NCBI GenBank assembly: GCA_013334975.1
Contig: JAAXWL010000015.1
Location: forward strand, 1 to 37,381
Length of the DNA: 37,381 nucleotides
Direction of reading: 5' to 3'
DNA from: Chlorobiaceae bacterium
GTDB taxonomy: Bacteria > Bacteroidota > Chlorobiia > Chlorobiales > Chlorobiaceae
Below the pieces are notes generated by a model. That model worked only from the letters and a program-made list of their open reading frames with translations. It was not told the origin of the DNA and searched no databases. How positions within the stretch are numbered: the first letter of the stretch is position 1; each line of letters opens with the position of its first letter. The translations under genes and the position numbers were made by a program. Positions 9,525-37,381 of this stretch are shown piece by piece.

Positions 9525-9788
9525 AACTGACGTATGATACAGAGCCATTGATTTTATCCAAATCCAAATCGGTATCGGTATCGAAATTGATTATTTAGTG
9601 TAAAAAAACAGAAAACCGGTCTGTGGCTGTATCTGTCGAATTATCAAATACTTATCACAATAAACCACAAAAAATCCAGGTGAGTTATAATCAGCTTTTT
9701 CAAGAGGAACTCGATACCGATACCGATTTGGATACCGATTTCGATGATAAAAGAAAATCTGACTATTTACCGTTGACACGCCACTAGT
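9525..9788. repeat. Intergenic repeat element, copy A (with internal inverted GGTATC/GATACC arms)
   Basis: Starts ctgacgtat..; left arm ccaaatcggtatcggtatcga, conserved acagaaaaccggtct core and attatcaaatacttatcacaataa, right arm aactcgataccgataccgatttggataccgattt; ends ccgttgacacgccactagt. Aligns with copies B and C. Confidence 0.85.
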
Positions 9789-14024: not shown

Positions 14025-14282
14025 CTGACGTATATTCAGGAGCCCTTATTTTATCCAAATCGAAATCGGTATCGGTATCGAAATCGATTATTTATTGTGA
14101 AAACAGAAAACCGGTCTCTGATTTTATTTATTTAATTATAAAATAGTTATCACAATAAGTCACTATTCTGCAGTGAGTTTTTCTTTAGCATTTTTAAGTG
14201 GAACTCGATACCGATACCGATTTGGATACTGATTTTGATGATAAAGATAATTGCGACTATTTTCCGTTGACGCGACAGTAGT
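14025..14282. repeat. Intergenic repeat element, copy B
   Basis: ctgacgtat..ttttatccaaatcgaaatcggtatcggtatcgaaatcgattattta..acagaaaaccggtct..aactcgataccgataccgatttggatactgatttt..ccgttgacgcgacagtagt. Confidence 0.85.
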
Positions 14283-28656: not shown

Positions 28657-28974
28657 CCGCGTAATCCCAATAAAGCACTTGAAAATCAGGCGTATTCTTC
28701 GTACCTATAAACTGTAAGCCATGCCGTCGGGTTTATGCAGTGCCCCTTCCGAGACGGTTCCGGATTAACGATGTTCAGTGACGATTGCCACGACCGACCA
28801 ACGTTGAGTTCAGAACAACTCAACTGACGTGTATGAAATGAGAATGATTCACCACGCTGTTCCTTGAAGGCGTGAGTGAGGGTGTTTTCAAAACCTCTTG
28901 AGGCTCTTGTCCCGCAAGTATTCTGAGCTGACCGTTGTTCTCCATCTCTTTCACTATTTGAAGTGTTACCGCTT

Positions 28975-31545
28975 ATGGCTGCAAGAGACTCATTTTATCT
29001 TGGTGCTTTGCTGCACGACGTCGGCAAGTTTATCCAGCGAGCAAGGTTGCCTGCCTGGACCCGTGCAGCAAGAGAGAGAGATTATGTCAAGCTCGGAGGG
29101 CGTATTCATGCTCACAAGAGGTATTCGGCAGCATTCATCAGACTTTTCCGTAGCAAGCCATTTTTATCAGATTCACATATTGAAGACTATGTTTTGCACC
29201 ACCATGCCCCCAGAGACAGGGGCGTTAAGGATTTTGGCAGAACAGACATTCCGATTCATCTGATACGGATTGCTGATGTCTGGGCATCGAAAGAGAGGGA
29301 AAAAGTCAGGTTCCTTGAGCCGGTAGCCTATTCAAGGGCACGGCTTCAATCGATATTTTCAAGTATACGTTTGAAGACAAAGGCCGGTGAAGATTATACT
29401 CCTAATCTTGAGTACCATGATCTGAGGAAGCTTTCGATTTTGCAAGAGGCGCTGTTTCCTGCCGGACAAACCCCACGATATGCTGATCAGGCATACAGGT
29501 CAATCATCGATGATTTCATGGAGTCATTCGGCAAGGTGCGGGATGACGATGAGTTTTTGTCGTTACTCTGGAAATACTTCAATGCGGTACCGGCACAGAC
29601 TCCCAACAGAAAAGAGGGCTCTTTACTTGACAGGCCAGACATCAATCTTTTCGATCATTCAAGGGTAACTGCGGCGATAGCGCTTTGTTTGTACGATGAA
29701 TGGCAACACGGTGACTGGAAAGATAAAGAAAAGACTATCAGGGATTACCGACCCGGTGGCGAGAATCAGGATACGTTACCTGCGCCTTGCATTTTGATTG
29801 GCGGAGATATATCGGGTATCCAGAAGTTCATTTTTAACGTCCCATCGAAGGGAGCAGCTAAAACACTTAAGGCGAGGTCATTTTACGTGCAGCTTTTTGC
29901 AGATCTTTGCGCAAGAAAGGTGCTTGAGTATCTCGACCTGAAACCAGCCAATCTGTTGTACAACGGTGGCGCACGGTTCTACATTCTCGCTCCGAAATAT
30001 CGGGAGTCTCAGCTCGACAAGTGCCGGATAGAGATTATGCAGAGTCTGCTCAGTCGTGAGTTCATTGATGATGAACTGTACCTTTCCCTTGCCTCTGTTG
30101 TTGTGGCTCCTGGAGATTTTATGAACAAATTCGGCCAGAAATGGGCTGAGGTTAACCAGACGCTTGACGTTGCCCGGTTGCAGAAGTTCAGGCAATCAGG
30201 CTATGGTGATGTGTTTGAGCCAAAAGAGCAACGTCGGGTAAGTGAAGCGCCGGAAAAAGGTGATCTCTATACCGACATTACAACATGCCTGAAAGAAAAG
30301 AGCTTCCAGGTATCACGTGCACCTGAAAACGATGTACCGGAGGGCAATTGCTGGAGGAATCTGTTCTGGAAGATGGGATATGTCGTTGATTTTCCTTCCG
30401 GTGTTGCAGAAGGCAAGACAACACTCTTCAATAGCACTGATTTTGAAGGGAATTACTCGGATTTCAGATTTGCTGTCAAGGATTTGCCTCTTTGGACGAA
30501 ACCGACCATCGAGCAATTCATGAAGGATGTTGTGGTGTGTGGTCGTTTGATAGAGGAGTATCAGGATGAGGATGACCGGGGCAACAAGCTGCCGATAATA
30601 AAAGACAATATCATAACCTATTCACAGCTTGCCTTCAAGGCTTTTGCTGAAACCGGTACTGAAAAGCTTGGCATTCTGAAAATGGACGTCGATGACCTCG
30701 GCCTGATTTTTTCAGAAGGTTTTGATGAAAAGTACAGGACTCCCTCGCGGATGATGTCGTTATCGCGATCATTGCAATGGTTTTTTGAGGGGTACATGAA
30801 CACCATTCTTCGCGATGACCAGTTCAGGGATTACATCTATCCGATTTTTTCCGGTGGTGATGACCTGTTCATGGTTGGGGCATGGCACAAAGTTTTTGAT
30901 CTGGCTTTGAGAATCCACGAAGAATTTCAGCGTTTTGTATGCGACAATCCGTCGCTGACGCTCTCGGCCAGTCTGCTGGTTGTCGATGAGCATTACCCGG
31001 TATCGCGATTTGCCGTGCTTGCCGAGGAGCGATTGCATGAAGCCAAGTACGGAAGCCTCAATAAAAACTCGGTCAATGTGCTCGGTGAGACGTTGAGTTG
31101 GGAGGAGTTCAAAGAGGCTTGTGATGTTAAAAAATGTCTTTTTGAACTTGTAGATGAAACGGGCGTTTATAAGGTTTCTCGATCAGTTATCTATAAGGTT
31201 TTACATAGTTGCGAAGGGTTGTCGGAATTGCATGATCGGGCACAATTGCTCTATAAGGCCGAATCTTCAAAGGACATGACTTATCTTTCCCGTTTACGGG
31301 ATATGCCGCTTGTGGGAGAAAAAATGTGGCGTATGAGTTACATGCTTCGTGATATCAGAAAAGATGAGGCAAAAGAGAAGGCTAAAAGTCTTATAGATAA
31401 ATATGAATCGGTTGTAAAAAAGGCCATTAAAGGAGAGCCAGTCAATCCCATGTATGTCGCTGTCGGAGCTCGATGGGCTGAGTTGGCAACACGATACAAA
31501 CAGAAATGTCTTGAAAACCAAAATCAGGAAAATCATGCAGAGTAA
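28975..31545 (+). CDS. csm1: Type III-A CRISPR-Cas Cas10/Csm1
   Basis: N-terminal HD nuclease motif LGALLHDVGKFIQRA; palm motif YPIFSGGDDLFMVGAW; first downstream in-frame ATG after the GTG of the track is 28975. Confidence 0.95.
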   Translation: MAARDSFYLGALLHDVGKFIQRARLPAWTRAARERDYVKLGGRIHAHKRYSAAFIRLFRSKPFLSDSHIEDYVLHHHAPRDRGVKDFGRTDIPIHLIRIADVWASKEREKVRFLEPVAYSRARLQSIFSSIRLKTKAGEDYTPNLEYHDLRKLSILQEALFPAGQTPRYADQAYRSIIDDFMESFGKVRDDDEFLSLLWKYFNAVPAQTPNRKEGSLLDRPDINLFDHSRVTAAIALCLYDEWQHGDWKDKEKTIRDYRPGGENQDTLPAPCILIGGDISGIQKFIFNVPSKGAAKTLKARSFYVQLFADLCARKVLEYLDLKPANLLYNGGARFYILAPKYRESQLDKCRIEIMQSLLSREFIDDELYLSLASVVVAPGDFMNKFGQKWAEVNQTLDVARLQKFRQSGYGDVFEPKEQRRVSEAPEKGDLYTDITTCLKEKSFQVSRAPENDVPEGNCWRNLFWKMGYVVDFPSGVAEGKTTLFNSTDFEGNYSDFRFAVKDLPLWTKPTIEQFMKDVVVCGRLIEEYQDEDDRGNKLPIIKDNIITYSQLAFKAFAETGTEKLGILKMDVDDLGLIFSEGFDEKYRTPSRMMSLSRSLQWFFEGYMNTILRDDQFRDYIYPIFSGGDDLFMVGAWHKVFDLALRIHEEFQRFVCDNPSLTLSASLLVVDEHYPVSRFAVLAEERLHEAKYGSLNKNSVNVLGETLSWEEFKEACDVKKCLFELVDETGVYKVSRSVIYKVLHSCEGLSELHDRAQLLYKAESSKDMTYLSRLRDMPLVGEKMWRMSYMLRDIRKDEAKEKAKSLIDKYESVVKKAIKGEPVNPMYVAVGARWAELATRYKQKCLENQNQENHAE

Positions 31546-31987
31546 TTTTTCCCGTTCAGGCGGTGGGCGTTCTGGGGGTTATCAGAAAAGCTGGAACGAA
31601 AAAACAGCTCATGAGGAAATACTGATTGCTTTTGGGGAAAATTTTGAAAACATGATTCTTTCCCCAAAGCCGCATGGCTATAACGATTATGTGAATCGTT
31701 TAAAAGAATATGTAGAGAAACATGTAAAAGGTATCACCTCTTCTCAGCTTCGGAATGTTTATGCTCTTATAAGGGAGAAAACCAACCCGGACAGTTTGCC
31801 TCATATCAGGCCGAGGCTTGCCTATGTGGCGGGGAGAGCAAATAATGATGAACTCAGGACGCTGATTTATTTACTCGATCTTCTTGCTGTTCGAGTCGAT
31901 GACAAAGCTAAACTGAAAAATTTCAAGTCATTTTTTGAATCGGTGATTGCCTACCACAAATATTTCGGAGGAAACGACAATGCATAA
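31535..31987 (+). CDS. csm2: Csm2 small subunit
   Basis: ATG 31535; ITSSQLRNVYALIREK..LPHIRPRLAYVAGRANNDELRTLIYLLDLLAVRV; position between csm1 and csm3. Confidence 0.88.
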   Translation: MQSNFSRSGGGRSGGYQKSWNEKTAHEEILIAFGENFENMILSPKPHGYNDYVNRLKEYVEKHVKGITSSQLRNVYALIREKTNPDSLPHIRPRLAYVAGRANNDELRTLIYLLDLLAVRVDDKAKLKNFKSFFESVIAYHKYFGGNDNA

Positions 31988-32741
31988 ACTCATTGGTAAA
32001 GCATTCATATCCGGCAGGATTGTTGTTAAAACAGGGTTGCATATCGGTGGTTCAAAGACGGTGCTTGATATCGGGGGTGTTGATTTGAACGTCATAAAAA
32101 CCCATCAGGGAGTCCCGTACATTCCAGGAAGTTCATTAAAAGGTAAATTACGATCTATTTTAGCTCGTGAAGAAGGTTCACTCGCAATAAAACGTGAGTT
32201 GAATATGCCAGTTGGCATGATCGTTGATAGTGAAAAAATAAACCTTTTGTTTGGAAAAGGGGCCGAAAAAGATACTGAAGAACAAAAGTTGCCAGCCAAA
32301 TGTCAGTTGACCAGGTTAATTGTCAGGGATGCATTTCTTGATGTCAGACATTTTCAAAAGTATTTTTACGATATTGAACCGGCTGATGAAGGGGTTGAAG
32401 ATGAACTTGTGAATTTTACCGAGATAAAGACCGAAAATACAATCAACAGAATTACAGGGACGGCACAGCATCCTCGACAGCTTGAAAGAGTGCCAACCGG
32501 AGCGGAGTTTGATTTTGAAATCATCTACAACGTTTTTAACGAAGCTGAGAAGGTCATGCATCTCAACGCATTGATGCAGGCGATGAGAATACTGCAGGAT
32601 GATTATCTCGGTGGGAGTGGTTCTCGCGGTTATGGGCAGATAGGTTTTAAAAGTATGAAATACGAATACTGTTCTGTTGATGATTACAAGAGTGGGAATG
32701 GTCGTCGTAATCTTGAGATTAAGGGTATAAAAAATTCTTGA
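31980..32741 (+). CDS. csm3: Csm3 RAMP (Cas7 family)
   Basis: ATG 31980 overlapping the csm2 stop; GKAFISGRIVVKTGLHIGGSKTVLDIGGVDLNVIKTHQGVPYIPGSSLKGKLRSIL, GGSGSRGYGQIGF. Confidence 0.93.
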   Translation: MHKLIGKAFISGRIVVKTGLHIGGSKTVLDIGGVDLNVIKTHQGVPYIPGSSLKGKLRSILAREEGSLAIKRELNMPVGMIVDSEKINLLFGKGAEKDTEEQKLPAKCQLTRLIVRDAFLDVRHFQKYFYDIEPADEGVEDELVNFTEIKTENTINRITGTAQHPRQLERVPTGAEFDFEIIYNVFNEAEKVMHLNALMQAMRILQDDYLGGSGSRGYGQIGFKSMKYEYCSVDDYKSGNGRRNLEIKGIKNS

Positions 32742-33775
32742 TAAATAGATGTAAAATGCAGGCACTCTTGTTGATTCCCGGTGATGGTGGTCAGTTTCAC
32801 TTCGGGGAAACCGGACTGGATGACAGCAGCGATCTGTTGCACTCCGATACGCTGTTTTCCGCTTTGGCAAATATTTATGAGTACGCATTGAGCGGAGCAA
32901 AGACATTTATTGATCTGGCTGAATCGGGGAGGCTTATGTTTTCTTCCGGGTTGTACGCTTTGCTGAAACAGGGGGAGCTGTCGCTGTTGTTTGTACCAAA
33001 ACCAGTCGTGGCCTACAGCAAGACCGATGACCGGAAGCGCTACAAGAGCCTGAAGTACTTCTCTCTCAAAGTGCTTGAGCAGTTCAGCCTTCATTTCAAT
33101 GCAGAGAAGCTGGAGTCCGAGCTTGACTTTGCAGCTTTCCCGTCAATCGGCAATGAGTTTCTCTATCTGGCAGATGAGCTTGGAGGGACGCAGGATGAAT
33201 TCACAAGTCGCTCTTTTCGCAGATTGACCACCAGTCCTAAAGTGAAAGTGCATACTACTCTTGAGGACAATGATCGGTTATATCACGAGACTACCGTGCA
33301 GTTCCATTCGTTTTCCGTTGCTGGCGTGGAATACGAGGGGGCGTATTGCGTTTTGTACGAAGCCGACGGACTGAGCCCGAGTGAGCGGCAGGAGTTTCTT
33401 GCGGCAGTGCGAATCATGGCCGACGAAGGTGTCGGCGGGCAGCGCTCCTCCGGCAAAGGCCAGTTCCGGCAAGTTCGGGAAGTGACCGTCTCTCTACCGT
33501 GTCAGACTGACGCATCAAAATATCTCGGTTTATCGGTTCTTTCCCCTGCCGATGCAGGTGAGTTCGATGCGCTGAACCGCTACGAGCTGTTTGTTCGTGG
33601 AGGTGGTTCGATTGGCTGGCGAGGGGAGAGCGAAAAGCATCGCAAGCAGGCGAGATTTATCAGGGAAGGCTGCGTCATGAGCCATAATATCAGCGGCAGG
33701 GTAGTCGATCTCTCCCCTGAAACCAAGACGGGTTCAATCAAACGCAACGGTAGAAACTTTGCCATTCCAATCTGA
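32738..33775 (+). CDS. csm4: Csm4 RAMP (Cas5 family)
   Basis: 345 aa; HFGETGLDDSSDLLHSDTLFSALANIYE, GVGGQRSSGKGQFR; gene order. Confidence 0.9.
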   Translation: MINRCKMQALLLIPGDGGQFHFGETGLDDSSDLLHSDTLFSALANIYEYALSGAKTFIDLAESGRLMFSSGLYALLKQGELSLLFVPKPVVAYSKTDDRKRYKSLKYFSLKVLEQFSLHFNAEKLESELDFAAFPSIGNEFLYLADELGGTQDEFTSRSFRRLTTSPKVKVHTTLEDNDRLYHETTVQFHSFSVAGVEYEGAYCVLYEADGLSPSERQEFLAAVRIMADEGVGGQRSSGKGQFRQVREVTVSLPCQTDASKYLGLSVLSPADAGEFDALNRYELFVRGGGSIGWRGESEKHRKQARFIREGCVMSHNISGRVVDLSPETKTGSIKRNGRNFAIPI

Positions 33776-33784
33776 ACGACACTC

Positions 33785-34939
33785 ATGCGGCAAACCTTGA
33801 CAACTCATACAATAAAACTGACAACACTCTCGCCGCTCCATATCGGTGCGGGAGATGAGCACATCCTTTCGCCCTATTGCGATTATGTGCAGCGTGGTGA
33901 TTCATTGATTTACATCGATACCAAAAAGCTTCAGGCGGCAATGCAGGGCGACAAGGGGTTTGTCGAAGCTTTTGTGAAAGGGATGCGGCAGTTTGAGAAC
34001 AACCGCTCGACATTCTCGCTTGACCATTTTATTACCAAGATATTGGGGCAGAAAATTGATGATTTTACCGCTCGTGTTGTGAAGATTGAGGGAGACTGCA
34101 AGAAAGCTCACATTCGCCGCTTTATTTTCACCGCCGGAAAACCCTTCATTCCCGGCAGCTCACTGAAAGGGGCAATCAGGACGGCGGTGCTGGTCGATTG
34201 GTTGTTGAAAAACAAAAAGGGTGAAGAAGAACTCAGCAAAATCAGGGCTGCGGTGAACAATCATGATAAAAAAAAGGCAAAAGAGGCTCTTGAACAAATG
34301 AATCCTGAGCAGTCCTGTTACGGTTCGATTGACTGTGATGTTTTCCGGCACCTGAGAATAAGCGATTCTGAACTGATCGACGTTTCACATCTGATGGTTG
34401 GGGGTATGAAGCGTGTTGCCTTGCCTTCTGAAAAGAAGAAAAAGCAGCAACAATCCAAGATTCCTCAATGGAGTGAAGTCATTGAAAAGTCAGTTGAGAC
34501 AGAGTTTTCTCTCTCCATGACAACTCCGTTTGACAAAACCGGTTTTGATTTTCTCGATCATCAATCGGTTACGAAACTGTTTCCGATTGTCAATACAATA
34601 TTTCGAAAGTCATGCAAACGTGAGCTTGTGAAGCTTAACGGCATTCAATTCTTCAGCTATTTTACCGGCTTTTACCATGATCTTATAGATTGTATTGACG
34701 AGTTAAAGCCCAATGAAGCGATTCTTCGCTTGGGGGGCGGAAAGACCTGGTTCGACAACTCTATCGGACTCTCAATCGATAGTAATGAGTTTGGCACGGT
34801 CAAGCTGTTTGAACGATACCTTGATTTGTTATTAGGTATAGAGACCAGTTCCTTTCCCGCAACCAGATCGGCCATTATCAAAAACAACCTTCCGGTTTAT
34901 CCGCTTGGCTGGGTCAAGCTTACACTGCTCAAGAATTAA
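33785..34939 (+). CDS. csm5: Csm5 RAMP
   Basis: 384 aa; IKLTTLSPLHIGAGDEHILSPYCDYVQRGDSLIYIDTKKL, PFIPGSSLKGAIRTAVLVDWLL; gene order. Confidence 0.9.
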   Translation: MRQTLTTHTIKLTTLSPLHIGAGDEHILSPYCDYVQRGDSLIYIDTKKLQAAMQGDKGFVEAFVKGMRQFENNRSTFSLDHFITKILGQKIDDFTARVVKIEGDCKKAHIRRFIFTAGKPFIPGSSLKGAIRTAVLVDWLLKNKKGEEELSKIRAAVNNHDKKKAKEALEQMNPEQSCYGSIDCDVFRHLRISDSELIDVSHLMVGGMKRVALPSEKKKKQQQSKIPQWSEVIEKSVETEFSLSMTTPFDKTGFDFLDHQSVTKLFPIVNTIFRKSCKRELVKLNGIQFFSYFTGFYHDLIDCIDELKPNEAILRLGGGKTWFDNSIGLSIDSNEFGTVKLFERYLDLLLGIETSSFPATRSAIIKNNLPVYPLGWVKLTLLKN

Positions 34940-34945
34940 CCACAG

Positions 34946-35938
34946 ATGTACACACCCCTCTCTTCTCTTCGTATTGCCCGGTTTCGTTTCACGATCGAGC
35001 CGCTGGAGCTGGTGCAGTTGCCGGATTACAAGGGCTCGGCGCTTCGGGGCGGGTTCGGACATGCTTTCAAGCGGGCGACATGCCTCTCCCGTGATCGGCA
35101 GTGCGAGCCTTGCATTCTCAAATCGGCATGTGCGTACCACACGGTGTTCGAGACGAAGGTGTCGCAAGAGAGAGCCGACCGGTTGCGGATCGGGGCTGAT
35201 GCGCCGCATCCATTCCTGATCGAACCGCCGATGACAGGGCAGCATACCTTCAGACCGGGTGATTCGATCCGGTATGGCGTTACCCTGTTCGGTACGGCCA
35301 TCGACAAGCTGCCGTTTTTCATTTACGCCTTCATGATTCTTGGCGAGAATCTCGGTCTCGGAAAAGGGCGTGGGCGGTTCAGGTTAGTGAGCGTCGAGGA
35401 TGATGCGGGTCGGAACATCTATGATAACGGCAATCTCGTCGGCCCCGTCTCCGTTGCGCAATCGAAGGATATTCTTGAATCAGCCGGTACGAGTGATCAC
35501 GAACTCAGCCTCGAATTCCTGACGCCGCTGCGCATCAGGACGGCATGGAAGCGGCAGGAGCAGGAGCTGCTCACAGGTATTACGGGTGATGGAGATTTCC
35601 GGCTTCTGCTCAAGTCGCTCTACCACCGCGCGTTCGTGCTGTCGCAGCTTTACGGCGAAAGATCGGAGACGCAGGCGTTCGACAGCCGCAACATGCCGCT
35701 TTTCGATGGTGATGTGCGTCTTGTTGAGTCGAAAACCCGCTGGCTGGACTGGACACGATACTCACAGCGCCAGCAGCAGCCGATGCAGCTCGGCGGCATC
35801 ATGGGCAACGTCACCTTCACCGGCAAAACCGGACGGTACTATCCACTGTTCCGCCTCGGTGAGTATCTGCACATGGGCAAAGGAACTACTTTCGGTCTCG
35901 GAAAGTATCGCCTGACCGAAAACCGGGTAGAACCATGA
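34946..35938 (+). CDS. cas6: Cas6-family pre-crRNA processing endoribonuclease (RAMP)
   Basis: 330 aa; YKGSALRGGFGHAFKRATCL, CILKSACAYHTVFE, C-terminal GGIMGNVTFTGKTGRYYPLFRLGEYLHMGKGTTFGLGKY. Confidence 0.88.
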   Translation: MYTPLSSLRIARFRFTIEPLELVQLPDYKGSALRGGFGHAFKRATCLSRDRQCEPCILKSACAYHTVFETKVSQERADRLRIGADAPHPFLIEPPMTGQHTFRPGDSIRYGVTLFGTAIDKLPFFIYAFMILGENLGLGKGRGRFRLVSVEDDAGRNIYDNGNLVGPVSVAQSKDILESAGTSDHELSLEFLTPLRIRTAWKRQEQELLTGITGDGDFRLLLKSLYHRAFVLSQLYGERSETQAFDSRNMPLFDGDVRLVESKTRWLDWTRYSQRQQQPMQLGGIMGNVTFTGKTGRYYPLFRLGEYLHMGKGTTFGLGKYRLTENRVEP

Positions 35939-36978
35939 GTGAGGACTCTCTTTTTCTCCGCACGCTCTACATTCAGGAACAGGGCTCGGTGCTCCGGGTT
36001 TCCAATGACCAGTTCAGGGTGACAACGGGCAACGACGATGATGAATCGGAACTGATCGAAATCCAGTCGATCAAGGTCGGGCAGATCGTCATTTTCGGGG
36101 CCTGCATGATTACTCCTCCGGCATTGAGGTATTGCCTCATGAAACGCATCCCCATTGTGCTCTTGTCACAGCATGGCGAATATTTCAGCCGGATCGAATC
36201 GACCGACGATGTGAACATCATGCTTGAACGCGACCAGTTCAGGCTCTCGACGGATGACGGGTTCGCTCTCGATTGCTCGAAGCATTTCATCAGGGCCAAG
36301 CTGCACAATTCGATGGTGCTGCTCAAGCGACGTTTGCCAGAGAGCAGTTCGGCTTCATTGCTTCATGCCATCGGGGAGCTGGAGTCATTGACGGCAGGTC
36401 TGGAGAAGGCCAGTACGCTTGATGCTGCTCGGGGTTACGAAGGAAGTGGGGCTGCGGCATATTTCGGTGTGTTTGAAGAGCTGTTCGAAACAGAGGGTTT
36501 CTGTTTCAGGAATCGAATCAAAAGGCCGCCACCCGATCCGGTCAACGCCATGCTGAGTTTTGGATACAGTCTGTTGTTCAACAACCTCTTCTCGATGGTG
36601 CGCATTCACCGGATGCACCCCTATGTCGGCTTTCTTCATGCCGACAAGCCGGTCCATCCTGCGCTGGTCAGTGACCTCATCGAAGAGTTCAGGACAATCA
36701 TCGATGGGCTGGTGCTGGGAATCATCAACAAGCACCTGATCGGGCCGGGTGAGTTCAGGATTGTGCATGATGAGGACGGGATTCTCAAGGGATGCTACCT
36801 CAGTGATGCCGCCCGGAAGGTGTTTTTGCGGGAGTTCGAGAACCTGATGCATCGGGAAACGACGCATACGGCAACCGGATACCGGGTGAGCTACCGCCGG
36901 TGCCTGGACCTTCAGGTCGGTCAGTTCGCCCTGTTTCTGAAAAAAGAACAACCGTACATTCCTTATCTGAGGAGGTGA
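35935..36978 (+). CDS. cas1: CRISPR-associated endonuclease Cas1
   Basis: 347 aa; RRLPESSSASLLHAIGELES, YEGSGAAAYFGVFEELF, DPVNAMLSFGYSLLFNNLFSMVRIHRMHPYVGFLHADKPVHPALVSDLIEEFR. Confidence 0.95.
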   Translation: MSEDSLFLRTLYIQEQGSVLRVSNDQFRVTTGNDDDESELIEIQSIKVGQIVIFGACMITPPALRYCLMKRIPIVLLSQHGEYFSRIESTDDVNIMLERDQFRLSTDDGFALDCSKHFIRAKLHNSMVLLKRRLPESSSASLLHAIGELESLTAGLEKASTLDAARGYEGSGAAAYFGVFEELFETEGFCFRNRIKRPPPDPVNAMLSFGYSLLFNNLFSMVRIHRMHPYVGFLHADKPVHPALVSDLIEEFRTIIDGLVLGIINKHLIGPGEFRIVHDEDGILKGCYLSDAARKVFLREFENLMHRETTHTATGYRVSYRRCLDLQVGQFALFLKKEQPYIPYLRR

Positions 36979-36981
36979 AGC

Positions 36982-37257
36982 ATGTTTTTGCTCATATCGT
37001 ACGACATCTGCGATACCAAACGCCTGCCCAAAGTTGCCAAACTGCTTGAAGGATATGGCAACCGTGTGCAGTACAGCGTGTTCGAGTGCATCCTGACGGA
37101 ACGGCAGTACAGAGAGTTGCAACGCCGGTTGTTGCGACTGATCAGGCCAGAGGAGGACAGCGTGCGGTTCTATCGTTTGTGCGAATCCTGCCGGGCCGAT
37201 ATTGAGATTTTCGGGCAGGGAAAAGTGAGCGAGAACGACTATTATTTTATAGCGTGA
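36982..37257 (+). CDS. cas2: CRISPR-associated endoribonuclease Cas2
   Basis: 91 aa; MFLLISYDICDTKRLPKVAKLLEGYGNRVQYSVFECILTERQYRELQRRLLRLI. Confidence 0.95.
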   Translation: MFLLISYDICDTKRLPKVAKLLEGYGNRVQYSVFECILTERQYRELQRRLLRLIRPEEDSVRFYRLCESCRADIEIFGQGKVSENDYYFIA

Positions 37258-37381
37258 CAGCCGAAAAGAGCGCGGTTTTGCACGGAGCTTTTCGGAAAAC
37301 CGCAACTGAATGGTGTGAATTCTGTAAAAATATGATAAATAATGAGTTACAAGGTTAACACTAAAAAAAGCTCCGTGTGAC
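37258..37381. promoter_or_regulatory. AT-rich post-cas2 region, possible CRISPR leader (no repeat visible before the window end)
   Basis: Non-coding, AT-rich and directly downstream of cas2. Interleaved inverted repeats at 37261-37303 and a distal 12-nt complement at 37366-37377. Confidence 0.45.

Follow-up and report, generated by a model that had tools for sequence, protein, structure and literature searches.

Three matching motif copies at fixed positions in CRISPR leaders as candidate docking sites for the Cas1-Cas2 integrase

Results

Type III-A operon and its truncated leader

The window analysed in this work, a stretch of 37,381 nucleotides from a Chlorobiaceae bacterium, is the whole of one contig (G000:C144) and ends in an operon of csm1-5, cas6, cas1 and cas2, which is assigned to type III-A by its gene content. 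The following features were recognized at this end.

28963..34939, plus strand: csm1-csm2-csm3-csm4-csm5, type III-A effector genes (NCBIfam TIGR02578, TIGR01870, TIGR02582, TIGR01903 and TIGR01899, all above cut-off)
34946..35938, plus strand: cas6 (Pfam PF10040 above cut-off; NCBIfam TIGR01877 below cut-off)
35935..36978, plus strand: cas1, integrase (PF01867, 4.9e-81; TIGR00287 above cut-off)
36982..37257, plus strand: cas2 (PF09827, 4.9e-28; TIGR01573 above cut-off)
37258..37381, plus strand: putative distal part of a CRISPR leader, truncated by the contig end (alignment with five complete leaders)

Position 37381 is the end of the contig and falls inside the leader before any CRISPR repeat is reached, and a search of the same genome found neither the window's own array nor the missing leader end. 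The DNA behind cas2 is probably a leader, with its array beyond the contig end, as judged from related loci. Seven close cas2 relatives (74-79% identical), all from the same family and named Chlorobiaceae, Chlorobium, Pelodictyon or Chlorobiota in public records, were collected, and a genome-wide Cas1 scan returned the same seven together with three distant relatives. In five of the seven, a complete leader of 270-275 nt lies between the cas genes and the first repeat of an array.

Several other features of these assemblies were observed. The second CRISPR system of the source genome, an RT-Cas1 system (L113, G000:C163:28500-32279), lies on a contig that ends exactly where its first CRISPR repeat ends, and in this assembly the two contigs with CRISPR loci both stop at the array or shortly ahead of it. 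In two relatives (L007/L061, G066:C97, and L011/L060, G053:C17) the III-A cas2 is adjoined by an RT-Cas1 gene on the opposite strand with no leader between them, and G053 has a partial second cas2 further downstream; these junctions are either fused CRISPR loci or assembly joins. Elsewhere in the window, positions 9551-9788 and 14048-14282 hold two copies of an element of ~240 bp, with pieces 81-89% identical and internal inverted repeats of the AATCGGTATCGG type, which is possibly MITE-like or a structured intergenic repeat.

Interleaved inverted repeats downstream of cas2

A preliminary description of this DNA had drawn attention to two interleaved perfect 8-bp inverted repeats in the order 1-2-1'-2' at the cas2/leader junction. 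Both the repeats and their placement are exact, and the element starts 4 nt past the cas2 stop codon.

37261-37268, plus strand: stem 1, 5' arm CCGAAAAG; present, pairing not conserved
37272-37279, plus strand: stem 2, 5' arm GCGGTTTT; present, not conserved in any relative
37288-37295, plus strand: stem 1, 3' arm CTTTTCGG; present, pairing not conserved, overlaps the outer part of motif copy 1 (see below)
37296-37303, plus strand: stem 2, 3' arm AAAACCGC; present, not conserved in any relative

The arrangement had been called unlikely by chance. This holds locally, since two perfect 8-bp repeats interleaved within 60 nt arose in none of 20,000 dinucleotide shuffles of the local 151 nt. It holds less well for an element picked from the whole window, where they arose in 4 of 200 shuffles (a ~2% event).

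One proposed role was an H-type RNA pseudoknot regulating cas2 or array transcription. Its arms are real and locally improbable, but the pairing is not conserved and shows no covariation above controls in five related III-A leaders. When the post-cas2 regions were aligned, as the preliminary description had advised, the pseudoknot pairing fared no better than shuffled or slid controls: across the six aligned leaders it was present in 53.8% of cells versus 50.3% for shuffled ones, and moving the partners by -2 or +1 columns scored higher than the real pairing. Helix 2 keeps only 1-5 of its 8 pairs in every relative. An H-type pseudoknot with a 0-nt loop across an 8-bp stem would be hard to build, and the third loop here is 0 nt; stem 1 also shares its bases with a conserved motif. 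Comparison with Rfam covariance models gave a sub-threshold chance match inside cas2 and nothing else. Since the preliminary description had itself named lack of covariation or conservation in related loci as refuting, the RNA pseudoknot is refuted by that measure, and we consider it extremely improbable; it is a peculiarity of the window sequence overlying the first of three motif copies.

Motif copies in type III-A leaders

The same leader sequence contains a longer perfect inverted repeat of 12 bp, formed by CACGGAGCTTTT and AAAAGCTCCGTG, which had been overlooked in the preliminary description.

37281-37292, minus strand: motif copy 1 (inverted) CACGGAGCTTTT, with the invariant core CACGGAG at 37281-37287 identical in six of six leaders
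37366-37377, plus strand: motif copy 2 (direct) AAAAGCTCCGTG, with the invariant core CTCCGTG at 37371-37377 identical in six of six leaders

The core of copy 1 lies inside the reported pseudoknot, and copy 2 ends 4 nt short of the contig end. In all five complete III-A leaders the motif occurs three times, and counted from the leader/repeat junction the copies lie at exactly the same positions: -245 (inverted), -155 and -54. The spacing of 90 bp between copies 1 and 2 in the window is that of all III-A relatives, and the 82 bp between them show no indel across six leaders, with an identity of 41-61% between lineages. Extrapolation from these leaders would place copy 3 of the window genome near 37472 and its first repeat near 37526, both past the contig end. 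The other role that had been proposed for the interleaved repeats, a DNA recognition site for spacer integration, is probably right in kind and wrong in sequence, with the candidate site being the CACGGAG core together with one partner 90 bp downstream of it and a second, predicted one at 191 bp.

The IHF consensus WATCAANNNNTTR was not found at a fixed place in the III-A leaders: one-mismatch matches occur in two of the five and in none of the other three. Leaders lacking a consistent IHF consensus may still be compatible with a degenerate or HU-type bend. The last 17-20 nt of the leader beside the first repeat, GGGTTTCACAGGGTACA, are identical among the III-A leaders (L005, L006, L008-L010) although the repeats themselves are quite unlike one another; the ends of RT-Cas1 leaders are similar (GGGTTTCCAGAGGTA). 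This segment is a candidate leader-end anchor.

The same layout in other CRISPR systems

Leaders with the same inverted/direct/direct order were also seen in RT-Cas1 and type I-C systems, in other Bacteroidota, in cyanobacteria (Synechocystis I-D among them) and in Chloroflexota; in each system the motif has its own sequence with three copies that match one another. Within the same family, 19 type I-C leaders carry CGCGAAC/GTTCGCG/GTTCGCG at about -176/-142/-54, with all three heptamers exact in 18 of the 19, some of which are near-duplicates. RT-Cas1 leaders have the inverted copy near -250 and the direct copies near -156 and -55, and their motifs differ by lineage (e.g. CTCCGGTTT, GAGCTGCGG, GAGCGTCGA and GAGCCTTCG). 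The RT-Cas1 system of the source genome on contig C163 uses the motifs GAGCCTTCGAT and GAGCCATCGAT; therefore, one cell contains two systems with two motifs. Other Bacteroidota leaders share the layout and have different motifs, and in roughly every second Bacteroidota outgroup leader, taken individually, the triplet is weak or absent. Among cyanobacteria the layout was first seen in six plasmid loci, and the Synechocystis I-D leader has its inverted/direct/direct copies at about -194/-156/-54.

In type I-C leaders (L027-L033, L045-L058) an additional degenerate copy, GTTTTCGTA or ATTCGCGTA, precedes a TTG[AG]CATA box, at about -75 and -85 relative to the first repeat; III-A and RT-Cas1 leaders have comparable boxes ahead of their copy 3. 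In the Chlorobiaceae RT-Cas1 systems (L012-L026), a small predicted protein gene is located between cas2 and the RT-Cas1 gene. By eye these intervening genes are of several unrelated kinds, some with a hydrophobic N-terminus.

Statistical support for copies and positions

In 29 representative leaders of systems other than type I-C, every direct offset between 20 and 199 bp was scanned with no spacing preset. The peaks for direct 9-mers were found at 101 and 100 bp (5.38 and 4.79 versus a mean of 3.81, sd 0.31). Between copy 3 and copy 2, 7.76 of 9 positions agree within a leader versus 6.11 of 9 when copy 2 is taken from other leaders (0/5000), with 7.25 versus 6.02 in the 16 leaders outside Chlorobiaceae (0/5000), and the inverted copy at -256..-240 gave 6.86 versus 6.10 (0/5000); these pooled counts come from leaders that share ancestry and are not phylogenetically independent.

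A held-out test, for which the windows and the statistic had been fixed beforehand, used 15 further plasmid Cas1 loci, which yielded 13 non-redundant leaders with an array downstream (twelve cyanobacterial and one from Chloroflexota). The direct copy scored 8.15 versus 6.72 and the inverted copy 8.54 versus 7.14, each with 0/10000 permutations (n=13). Five control positions were flat except for one weak signal at -104..-88, in the direct orientation only (24/4000). Fixed-window permutation tests were used instead of a triple-match score with broad windows, which took within-array repeats for triplets in some loci.

The position of copy 3 is -54 in III-A, -53 to -55 in I-C and -54 to -59 in 13 of 13 held-out leaders. 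Over all lineages the direct offsets form three classes spaced by about one helical turn (78-81, 89-92 and 99-103 bp), and a single offset of 74 lies outside them. The Rayleigh value for this phasing takes no account of common descent and serves as description only. Copies 2 and 3 agree over ~9-10 bp, and beyond this length their similarity is at background level. The motif does not resemble the CRISPR repeat of its own system (4507/10000), and the candidate explanation that it derives from this repeat was rejected with a match no better than chance. In summary, three copies at fixed positions, matching within each leader, are shown in at least three phyla, with a sequence that is specific to the system even inside one genome.

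Two explanations would refer this matching to nucleic acids. In the first, copy 1 would pair with copy 2 or 3 in the transcript to give a long hairpin or a two-state RNA switch. Indeed, the 12-bp pairing 37281-37292/37366-37377 dominates the predicted RNA fold of the window, with a z-score of -5.0 for 37278-37380 versus -1.3, which is not unusual, for the pseudoknot segment alone, and the complementarity of copy 1 to copies 2 and 3 persists even as the motif changes between systems. However, the III-A core never changes and the RNAalifold covariation term is unfavourable (+1.03). The loop length is kept to the base, which RNA hairpins do not need, and pairing predicts neither the fixed distance from copy 3 to the junction nor the grouping of offsets by helical turns. 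We regard such a switch as quite unlikely. The second explanation holds that copying, strand exchange or a guide RNA, and not recognition by a protein, keeps the copies identical, which would explain their fast change in concert. In its favour, RT systems whose Cas1 is 92% identical have different motifs, yet the copies within a leader largely agree. Against it, matching ends sharply at ~9-10 bp, as protein footprints typically do, the motif fails to match the CRISPR repeat, and no gene resembling a guide was observed. We consider this explanation very improbable.

Discussion

Proposed docking sites for Cas1-Cas2

We favour, with a probability of about two in three, the reading that the leader copies, with their system-specific sequence and helical phasing, are sites at which the Cas1-Cas2 integrase docks, with the leader working as DNA. 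From the sequence comparisons we infer Cas1-Cas2 as the probable binder of the copies and a looping of the leader. In this model, the leader holds three copies of a system-specific motif of ~9-10 bp, one inverted upstream and two direct, the last of them ~55 bp from the first repeat. The cognate Cas1-Cas2, together with DNA bending or looping, would read copy 3 as an anchoring site. Copies 2 and 1, always presented on one face of the helix, would let the integrase wrap the leader around itself and thereby restrict spacer entry to the leader-repeat junction of its own array. The integrase is favoured as the binder because the copies are tied to the junction and not to a promoter, and the fixed distance from copy 3 to the junction across subtypes points to the need of an integrase and not of a transcription factor. 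The adaptation genes common to these loci are cas1 and cas2.

An alternative is that the copies are operators, at which a DNA-looping transcription regulator would bind and control the promoter of the array. In several leaders copy 3 lies a short way downstream of a TTGACA-like box. In III-A and I-C leaders the sequence ahead of copy 3 is TTTGACATA or TTTGGCATA, and RT-Cas1 leaders have a similar CCTTTGACAT there. Operators that are spaced apart and act through looping occur widely. A precedent is known from Sulfolobus, where the regulator Csa3a binds a distal leader motif (PMC9456107). However, the site is locked to the leader-repeat junction, whereas its distance to the TTGACA-like box varies between systems, and this box is absent from the G026 and G047 leaders. 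The csm-cas operon contains no regulator gene, and no motif site was found upstream of csm1 with up to one mismatch allowed. Two systems with different motifs in one genome also make a common host regulator unlikely. On balance, we consider the operator explanation unlikely.

Some observations would count against docking sites for Cas1-Cas2 as well. The motif differs between the RT systems of G001 and G009 though their Cas1 and Cas2 are 92% and 91% identical, which implies that either i) specificity rests on few residues, or ii) another factor reads the motif. The inconsistent IHF site of the III-A leaders, the weak triplets of the outgroup and the predicted location of copy 3 beyond the contig would weigh in the same direction.

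Comparison with known leader systems

Leader motifs, anchoring sites and phase dependence are already known. At about -55, copy 3 would suit the role of the type I-E integrase anchoring site. In type I-E, the leader-proximal integrase anchoring site, or upstream motif, recruits Cas1-Cas2 to the leader-repeat junction after bending by IHF (PMC9456107, PMC10212523). Unlike in I-E, the site described here is triplicated, one copy is inverted, its sequence is system-specific, and the IHF consensus is not consistent in the III-A leaders. In type I-F, Cas2 of the Cas1-2/3 integrase contacts leader inverted-repeat motifs in a folded integration complex (PMC12259127). The present leaders share with I-F an inverted repeat, there contacted by the integrase during integration. 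I-F differs in relying on IHF and on a fusion of Cas2 with Cas3, and that work describes no fixed triplets of a hypervariable motif.

The Synechocystis I-D system has a long leader (202-220 bp), in which we observed the inverted/direct/direct layout. Three motifs of this leader are reported to enhance spacer uptake, and motif III to resemble the I-E integrase anchoring site (reviewed in PMC10212523), which lends indirect support to a role of the copies in anchoring the integrase; motifs I-III may correspond to the present copies. For the literature searched, whose scope did not extend to Kieper 2019, Santiago-Frangos 2021 and Buyukyoruk 2025, we found no description of three matching copies of a system-private sequence in the inverted/direct/direct order. 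Kieper 2019 reportedly treats the type I-D leader motifs I-III of Synechocystis, and Santiago-Frangos 2021 and Buyukyoruk 2025 are said to describe diverse subtype-specific upstream leader motifs whose phase matters for adaptation, including those of a subset of I-C leaders. To our knowledge, three mutually matching leader copies with a changing sequence have not been reported. Motif finders that look for a shared sequence would tend to miss such triplets.

Conclusions

For the IHF-using types I-E and I-F, structural work explains well how Cas1-Cas2 locates its own array and no other; for types III, I-C and I-D this is less clear. The motif described here is hidden from ordinary conservation, as its sequence changes between systems, and becomes obvious as three matching copies at fixed spacing. 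We hold the odds as evenly balanced for a broader view, in which leaders of many subtypes and phyla would share a hidden triplet layout, helically phase-locked to the first repeat, with a sequence turning over quickly but in concert, and Cas1-Cas2 would have private, rapidly evolving leader addresses with no cross-writing between co-resident arrays. The triplet would serve as a readable address for each such leader and as a simple means to recognize leaders and their orientation from sequence. In this way, leader specificity, the orthogonality of co-resident systems and the folding of leaders become directly testable.
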